From positions 1,798,001 through 1,862,000 of the forward strand of contig NZ_JAHXKI010000002.1 of assembly GCF_019392195.1 (NCBI RefSeq): 64,000 nt of DNA, read 5' to 3'. The notes under the pieces are model-generated. The model was not told the DNA's origin and did no database searches. It was given only the letters and a program-made list of their open reading frames with translations. The position numbers and the translations under genes are program-made. Within the stretch, counting starts at the first letter, position 1; every line of letters starts with the position of its first letter. Source of the DNA: Marinobacter sp. F4206. Its GTDB lineage: Bacteria; Pseudomonadota; Gammaproteobacteria; Pseudomonadales; Oleiphilaceae. Positions 37,439 to 38,956 of this stretch are shown one piece after another.

Positions 37439-37852
37439 ATGAGTGACCTCAGGGTTCTGGTGGTGGAAGACGAGCCGGTCATGAGGGAGAGACTGGTCGA
37501 GATGCTTTACCGGGCCGGTGCGACTCAGGTGTTCGAATGTGTGGATGCGGCGTCAGCGCGGGCTGCGTTTGCGGATCAGGAGTACCAGATTATCCTGCTG
37601 GACCTGGGGCTGCCGGATGGTGATGGTCATGAACTGATGCAGGCGTTCAAGAAGGTCCGTGCGGAGCAGCACATTGTTCTGGTGACGGCGGACGACTCCA
37701 TCGACAGCATTCAGCGGGCGATCAGTACCGGTGCCAACGGCTATGTCGTCAAACCCTATTCCCAGGAAAAGATCCACGACGTGGTGAACAACTATGCCAT
37801 GGTCCATGGTGGTGATATGGCCATGATGCAGGGCCTGAACCGGCGCCATTGA
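37439..37852 (+). CDS. Stand-alone response regulator receiver
   Basis: A 137-residue CheY-like protein. The acidic pocket is VVEDEP, the phospho-acceptor Asp is in IILLDLGLPDGDGHE, the Thr switch in VLVTADD and the Lys in VVKPYS, all of which are intact. No output domain is fused; after the receiver there is only a short tail. It ends the operon of the hybrid kinase, so the Hpt domain of the kinase probably passes phosphate to it. GGAGACAATC immediately before ATG gives a good ribosome site. Confidence 0.92.
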   Translation: MSDLRVLVVEDEPVMRERLVEMLYRAGATQVFECVDAASARAAFADQEYQIILLDLGLPDGDGHELMQAFKKVRAEQHIVLVTADDSIDSIQRAISTGANGYVVKPYSQEKIHDVVNNYAMVHGGDMAMMQGLNRRH

Positions 37853-37896: not shown

Positions 37897-38169
37897 TCAG
37901 GCAACCTGGCGCGCGATCCAGGAGTTGTAACGGGTTGCCAGGGCACGGACATAGCGGGCCTCGGCGCCATCCAGGTTGCCCAATACACCTTTGAAGATCC
38001 AGCCACGCTCGTAGAGGCCAAGCACCCGCTGCTCGTCATCCAGATTGACGCGCTGATTCAGTTTTTTGCAGATTGCATCCAGCAGCGGCAGCTTTTCGGG
38101 GCGCTTGAGAGGGCCCTGGCGACCGGCTAGGGGCTGGTTCGCTGCGCGTGTAGTCGGATGTCTTTTCAT
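37897..38169 (-). CDS. Small conserved-looking basic protein, unknown
   Basis: A 90-residue soluble, basic protein. The N-terminal third is Arg/Lys/Pro-rich; the rest is LDAICKKLNQRVNLDDEQRVLGLYERGWIFKGVLGNLDGAEARYVRALATRY, a helical domain I do not recognise. AAGGAG lies 7 nt before the ATG at 38169, a strong site, so I regard the gene as real. An intrinsic terminator (38206-38234) on the same strand lies within its leader, which may mean attenuation. It converges with the receiver gene. Confidence 0.7.
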   Translation of the reverse strand: MKRHPTTRAANQPLAGRQGPLKRPEKLPLLDAICKKLNQRVNLDDEQRVLGLYERGWIFKGVLGNLDGAEARYVRALATRYNSWIARQVA

Positions 38170-38205
38170 GATGTTCTCCTTGTCGTTTTGCGGCTGCAAA
38201 AACAA

Positions 38206-38234
38206 AAACCCCGGAGCCTAGGCAACCGGGGTTT
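38206..38234 (-). terminator. Terminator hairpin in the leader of the small basic protein gene
   Basis: On the minus strand AAACCCCGG (38226-38234 region) pairs with CCGGGGTTT (38206-38214) and is followed by a T-rich tract TTTTTGTTTTTG. It is 37 nt before the ATG at 38169 and would stop transcripts coming from the right. No confident minus gene lies upstream within 700 bp, so attenuation or an unseen small RNA is possible. Confidence 0.65.
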
Positions 38235-38499
38235 GGCGGAGAAGCTGACCCGGTCGCTGCAATGGCTCCCGGGACTGACCGAAAGCCGTTAGATATCTTT
38301 CACCATGGCGCGCGCAGATTGCGTAACTCGGCAATCTTGGGCGGTGCTCAATCGGGACTGTGAAATTATTCCGGTCATAACGGCTCTTTCTTGGTTCGGT
38401 TCCGGCATCAGTGTATCGGTTGGCTGGCGCTTTGCAAGCGCAGGAGCGCTTCGGCAAACCCGTACAGACGGCTCTGTCTGGAATGCGCATAATTTCTCT

Positions 38500-38598
38500 T
38501 GTCACGTGTTTTTACGTTGTGCAATCCATGGCTTCTGCCGCGCCAGAAGCCTCATGGATCTCTCCTTTCTACGCAGCCCCTTGGGCTGCGTTTTTTTT
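38500..38598 (+). ncRNA. Candidate trans-acting small RNA
   Basis: A possible -10 box CATAAT (38488-38493) would start a transcript near 38500. It holds a strong hairpin (ATCCATG+GCTTCTG, 38524-38537, with CAGAAGC and CATGGAT, 38544-38559), then a single-stranded linker CTCTCCTTTCT (38560-38570), then the terminator at 38571-38598. The linker is the complement of a Shine-Dalgarno region (AGAAAGGAGAG). No -35 is obvious and no protein is encoded. The rest of 38235-38716 shows nothing else I can support. Confidence 0.5.
38571..38598 (+). terminator. Strong intrinsic terminator
   Basis: CGCAGCCC (38572-38579) pairs perfectly with GGGCTGCG (38583-38590) across CTT, followed by eight T (38591-38598). 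The nearest plus-strand gene upstream ends at 37852, about 720 bp away, so this terminator probably serves the candidate small RNA. Confidence 0.9.
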
Positions 38599-38716
38599 GC
38601 GGTAGTGGAAAGCTCGTAGCCACTACTTCGTACAGATCTCCGGCGGCATTTTGACGATAATTTGCACACTAACTTATCGTTGATGTCACCAGACACAGAG
38701 GTTGAAACCCAAGCAA

Positions 38717-38956
38717 ATGGCCGACAAAGCCGGATCTGTACGCAACAAATTCCGTTTCCACATTTTCGTTGAAGCCGCCCTGATTGCCGTTCTGGCCTTC
38801 TACATGCTGATCGCGCAGAACCAGGCGGTGGGCGAAAATCTCGTCTTTACTGTCGCCGGCGCAGGCCTGATGGCCCTGGTCACTTACTGGACGCTGAATA
38901 CCTTGCGGGACGGGCTGGAAGTGATTGCTATGCGGTCTCGCCGCTCCGGGGCCTGA
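38717..38956 (+). CDS. Small two-helix membrane protein, unknown
   Basis: A 79-residue protein starting at ATG 38717. Two membrane helices: about residues 17-34 (VEAALIAVLAFYMLIAQN) and 42-62 (VFTVAGAGLMALVTYW). The N-terminus is basic and the C-terminus carries RSRRSGA, so the ends are probably cytoplasmic. I recognise no family. It converges with and overlaps the exonuclease gene by 29 bp. An upstream TTG (38702) is possible but sits right on the ribosome site. Confidence 0.65.
   Translation: MADKAGSVRNKFRFHIFVEAALIAVLAFYMLIAQNQAVGENLVFTVAGAGLMALVTYWTLNTLRDGLEVIAMRSRRSGA

Follow-up and report, generated by a model that had tools for sequence, protein, structure and literature searches.

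In the excerpts of PMC5362039 available to us, NmsRA and NmsRB of Neisseria meningitidis are described as carrying a conserved UC-rich single-stranded region between stem-loops, which is complementary to Shine-Dalgarno sequences and represses several mRNAs at the level of translation. Likewise, the available excerpts of PMC12559287 describe SisA-D of Caulobacter (alphaR8 family) as Hfq-bound RNAs that repress mRNAs and expose a single-stranded UC-rich 10-mer, UUUCCUCCCU, past a weak hairpin. The Marinobacter RNA reported here looks closest in layout to NmsRA/B and SisA-D, as far as those excerpts go, and we regard this as a likeness of layout. As in NmsRA/NmsRB, compared by mechanism alone, a UC-rich unpaired anti-Shine-Dalgarno patch lies between stem-loops and the molecule ends in U residues; however, the excerpted text presents the Neisseria RNAs as a sibling pair with two anti-Shine-Dalgarno regions and three stem-loops, whereas the Marinobacter RNA has one linker plus a conserved 5' block. 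With SisA-D it shares an internal single-stranded UC-rich patch downstream of a weak hairpin. Unlike that group, which in the excerpts comprises four siblings and a sponge RNA, it is single copy in the source genome, and its conserved core is CUCUCCUU rather than the alphaR8 core UUUCCUCCCU.

Marinobacter is a widespread marine genus whose members often degrade oil. The window, that is, the whole stretch of 64,000 nt analysed here, comes from Marinobacter sp. F4206, whose genome (4.0 Mb, 9 contigs) contains a single copy of the RNA. The features of the locus are as follows, in window coordinates.

38453–38469, + strand: conserved promoter element GGCAAACCCGTACAGAC, including TACAGA at 38463–38468
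38488–38493, + strand: -10 element CATAAT
38501–38523, + strand: GTCACGTGTTTTTACGTTGTGCA, the conserved block at the 5' end
38524–38559, + strand: central hairpin (14 pairs, 2-nt bulge, 6-nt loop); its sequence differs between species
38560–38570, + strand: unpaired anti-Shine-Dalgarno linker CTCTCCTTTCT, the complement of AAAGGAGAG
38571–38598, + strand: intrinsic terminator with a 9-bp stem (38571–38591) and eight T (38591–38598)
38631–38661, + strand: promoter-like stretch of the next gene, TACAGA-N19-GATAAT, outside the RNA
38717–38956, + strand: small protein gene, 79 aa from ATG or 84 aa from a TTG at 38702, with hydrophobic stretches by eye

The RNA would be about 98 nt long, from approximately 38501, the predicted 5' end, to 38598. 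The first-pass annotation had built its small RNA on a -10-like CATAAT, a 14-bp hairpin, an unpaired linker and a terminator ending in eight T, and we found all four in place, with CATAAT lying 7 nt ahead of the start it gave (38500). The gene-free stretch of some 500 bp that it described corresponds to a gap in likely protein genes from about 38169 to 38702 or 38717 in the mechanical list of open reading frames. It had also claimed that no protein gene lies within 700 bp of the terminator on the same strand; in that list, the closest likely + strand gene upstream has its end at 37852, which leaves 719 bp to the terminator. Two elements were absent from that account: an equally conserved 5' block (GUCACGUGUUUUACGUUGUG) and a promoter element common to the RNA and the next gene. 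The 101-nt stretch 38500–38600 folds at -39.7 kcal/mol, as compared with a mean of -23.3 (s.d. 3.1) for shuffled sequences (z = -5.3), none of 200 being as low.

The predicted RNA is found across most of the genus Marinobacter. A covariance model detected 114 copies among the 163 family genomes, of which 113 were hit: 105 of 124 within the genus and 8 of 39 outside it. The model was trained on 41 RNA sequences out of 92 distinct ones, and these 41 match by construction; its E-values are rough, and strict filters may drop weak matches. The 19 congeners with no model match count against the main reading given below. DNA BLAST alone gave 111 of 124 genomes in the genus, but some of these matches cover flanking sequence only. 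Conservation among relatives had been named from the start as a test of the small RNA, which the figure of 105 congeneric genomes answers in its favour. One genome (G037; L089 and L090) has two RNA copies on two contigs, the sole such case among the 113.

An order-wide model search of 293 genomes yielded 12 matches: ten were congeners, another belonged to the family and the last was a weak match (G305), which on reading lacked GTCACGTG, ACGTTGTG and CTCTCC and was taken as chance. A two-block pattern search of named genomes returned 81 stretches; among the 80 listed, 76 are labelled Marinobacter, one Halomonas, and three lie in unrelated organisms. The last three (L171, L196 and L243) fail the model, scoring nothing, nothing and 13 bits, respectively, and were likewise put down to chance. 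The stretch labelled Halomonas (L238, PAKW01000104.1), from a metagenome bin, does carry the RNA, and its label is probably wrong. Distant BLAST against phage records gave no match.

Two blocks of the RNA are nearly invariant across the 114 model matches. CTCTCC in the linker is present in 114/114 and the longer CTCTCCTTT in 109/114; in the 5' block, ACGTTGTG is present in 111/114 and the initial GTCA in 113/114. The hairpin between them is variable, a pattern that would be expected of exposed pairing sites spaced by a structural stem. We rejected a small peptide encoded within the RNA, because the position of the first ATG is scattered among copies, an ATG being absent altogether from 15 of the 104 unique ones, so that no reading frame is conserved from an ATG. 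CACGTG was also considered as a DNA operator and judged unlikely, since the adjoining U-run varies in length.

The variation in the stems preserves pairing. In a MAFFT alignment of 41 sequences, scored against an RNAalifold consensus with a manually added 5' hairpin, 95.6% of cells over the whole structure were paired, 84 cells were changed on both sides and the covariation score was 0.298, as compared with 88.2%, 24.0 and 0.156, respectively, in shuffles; none of 500 shuffles, which ignore relatedness, reached the observed values. When the structure was slid along the alignment as a control, 30–44% of cells paired and 18–31 were doubly changed, although the number of pairs with any both-side change was as high or higher at one offset (11 versus 10). 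Of the seven core pairs of the central hairpin, six changed on both sides with pairing kept, as did four of six pairs in the main helix of the terminator in relatives. Six genomes from a different genus in the family have a new sequence at the base of the central stem, UUCAUC/GAUGAA, which still pairs. The predicted weak 5' hairpin hardly varies, so covariation says little for or against it. In each of the 100 unique sequences that were folded, the mean unpaired probability of the linker was 0.76 or more, and in 95 it exceeded 0.8; three truncated extracts were left out of this set, and L085, one of the 114 model matches, is not part of it. Comparison among relatives thus supports the RNA gene, its predicted structure, the exposure of the linker and the putative promoter, and we consider this almost certainly a real sRNA gene. 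The small RNA reading of the first-pass annotation gains from conservation, from compensatory change in the hairpin, from the universal CTCTCC and from an Hfq encoded in the genome (PF17209, E = 3.2e-29).

Our main reading, to which we assign a probability of roughly 0.7, is that this is an Hfq-type trans-acting sRNA whose linker, CUCUCCUUU, would repress translation at Shine-Dalgarno sequences; transcription, the binding of Hfq, the repression and the targets are predictions. That it acts in trans by base pairing is, as a broader claim, very probable. Its own promoter, with TACAGA near -35 and CATAAT at -10, would produce a free-standing noncoding RNA of about 98 nt ending at the intrinsic terminator. 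Hfq would most likely be bound via the 3' U tract and the U-rich linker. The exposed CUCUCCUUU would then pair with the AAAGGAGAG-type Shine-Dalgarno sequences of several mRNAs and block 30S binding, and the other conserved block, ACGUUGUG, which lies towards the 5' end, is probably a second pairing site that lends target specificity.

Sites suited to such pairing abound in the genome. AAGGAGA-N3-10-ATG occurs at 90 sites, one of them the sRNA locus and one counted twice, as compared with 18 in the reversed control; Shine-Dalgarno pairing is therefore possible at many genes. Being the complement of a generic Shine-Dalgarno sequence gives the linker little specificity, which counts against our main reading. 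The complement of the linker (a 13-mer with up to two mismatches) has 70 genome matches versus 24 in the control, an excess expected from ribosome sites and purine-rich codons. We read 30 of these 70 in context, among them the sRNA and every one of the six with a single mismatch; one of the six falls on a start site, that of an ATP-grasp protein gene downstream of an mqo-like gene (both named by eye from the translation), which is the best candidate at a start site. By eye, other genes with a 9-nt match are flgC, a peroxiredoxin gene and gatB. RNAduplex, run on whole start regions, told little about targets, as it ignores internal folding.

We compared the ATP-grasp start site across 69 genomes, out of 71 with a BLAST match (one was not fetched and one had no recognised start). 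A 10-nt match was present in 21 of 59 RNA-bearing and in none of 10 RNA-less genomes, the species being related; a 9-nt match was present in two of the 10 RNA-less genomes. In the 59 RNA-bearing genomes the longest exact match was 8.1 nt on average, as compared with 6.6 nt in the 10 without the RNA; start assignments look doubtful in at least two genomes (G043 and G011). Since 25 of the 59 RNA-bearing genomes keep a match of 7 nt or less, these comparisons argue against the ATP-grasp gene as a core target, and as a target of any kind it is suggestive at most.

Of the alternatives, the one that survives best also holds the RNA to be trans-acting, but reverses the roles of its two blocks: CUCUCCUUU would mainly bind Hfq or pair with another RNA, as sponge or sponged, and the 5' ACGUUGUG would be the real seed. 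The 5' block is indeed nearly as conserved as the linker, a U-rich stretch ahead of a terminator is a usual Hfq contact and, in the available excerpts of PMC12559287, SisA of Caulobacter has a similar UC-rich core, itself sponged by CrfA. Nevertheless, an exact CUCUCC in every one of the 114 copies is not needed for Hfq binding alone, and sequences complementary to the 5' block are hardly enriched in the genome (49 near matches versus 44 in the control). We consider the reversed roles unlikely and retain repression through the linker. The near-lack of enrichment also counts against our main reading, as does the context of 30 of the 49 near matches, none of which lies convincingly on a start codon.

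The promoter is conserved along with the RNA. TACAGA lies upstream of it in 113/113 copies, at -38 to -33 if the start is 38501, and an ATAAT-like motif, allowing a few variants, is found in 110/113 promoters, 20 nt past TACAGA in 102 of the 110; the sequence of the spacer between them is not conserved. Most copies, in the other genus too, have the longer core GGCAA(A/T)CCC(G/C/T)TACAGA, though L111 and L151 are among the exceptions. No sigma-70 promoter emerged at the RNA start from a generic scan, and the -35 region is not TTGACA-like. Upstream of 38453 there is a conserved TTTGCAA...TTCGGCAAAC, an imperfect inverted repeat that overlaps the promoter element in many congeners and is a possible operator.

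The same promoter layout precedes the next gene. CGTACAG-N17-21-ATAAT occurs twice in the genome (none in the reversed control), and TACAGA-N18-20-ATAAT occurs only at these same two sites, ahead of the RNA and ahead of the next gene (two in the reversed control). The two TACAGA sites are 168 bp apart, and, the count of the shorter form being no higher than chance, their adjacency is the telling part. The 79- to 84-residue product of this gene matched no Pfam family. Among the 114 RNA copies in this count, for which three genomes were fetched twice, TACAG-N17-21-ATAAT follows in 74, every one of them with the gene; another 11 have the gene without the exact pattern.

This arrangement raises a second alternative, that the RNA is a cis-acting leader or attenuator of the downstream small protein gene, given that both lie on the same strand, that the terminator ends about 105–120 bp ahead of the possible starts of the gene and that the promoter layout is common to both. 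The gene has its own promoter-like stretch past the terminator, however. A cis-acting leader would also always lie upstream of the gene and be inherited with it, whereas a homologue of the gene was present at 90 of 121 loci and missing at the other 31 (29 genomes, two of them fetched twice; contig ends truncate some loci), all of which bear the RNA, and four loci keep the gene without the RNA. We therefore regard this alternative as highly improbable. At congener loci L112, L115, L117 and L118, which are among the BLAST matches confined to flanking sequence, the RNA is missing, and the downstream promoter-like stretch and the gene are kept in all four; by eye, a decayed terminator seems to be left in L112 and L115. 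Because each occurs without the other, the RNA and its neighbour are separate units, and they may have a common regulator. Control of the MerR, FliA, Fur or GacA type was considered on general grounds and yielded no candidate regulator. The last alternative, that there is no RNA gene but a leftover terminator beside a chance hairpin, draws on the readiness with which terminator-like scans yield chance matches (6 versus 2.3 expected over 2 kb), yet it is scarcely credible in view of the conservation and covariation seen in relatives and of the promoter geometry.

Rfam 15 contained no family above its gathering cut-off at this locus or in 15 loci searched (that of the window and 14 from relatives). 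The near misses Hrs1, asX2 and GadY scored 15–20 bits against gathering scores of 45–70, the first two on the opposite strand, and were taken as chance; they resemble the RNA in having a terminator hairpin and in general layout. Among the open-licence papers found to mention both Marinobacter and small RNA, none is about a Marinobacter sRNA, judged by title and the beginning of the abstract. The RNA represents a new family within a known class of regulators.

A wider interpretation, which we offer tentatively and consider possible rather than probable, is that the RNA belongs together with its small-protein neighbour to one dedicated regulatory unit of Marinobacter. Their TACAGA-N19-ATAAT promoters would be under one activator or sigma factor, and the anti-Shine-Dalgarno patch together with the fixed 5' block would make the RNA a broad brake on translation under that signal. 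The promoter layout common to the RNA and a single neighbour provides a handle on the inducing signal. Genus-wide and carrying two near-invariant blocks, of which one is simply an anti-Shine-Dalgarno sequence, the sRNA offers a clean case for how a non-specific patch chooses its targets.
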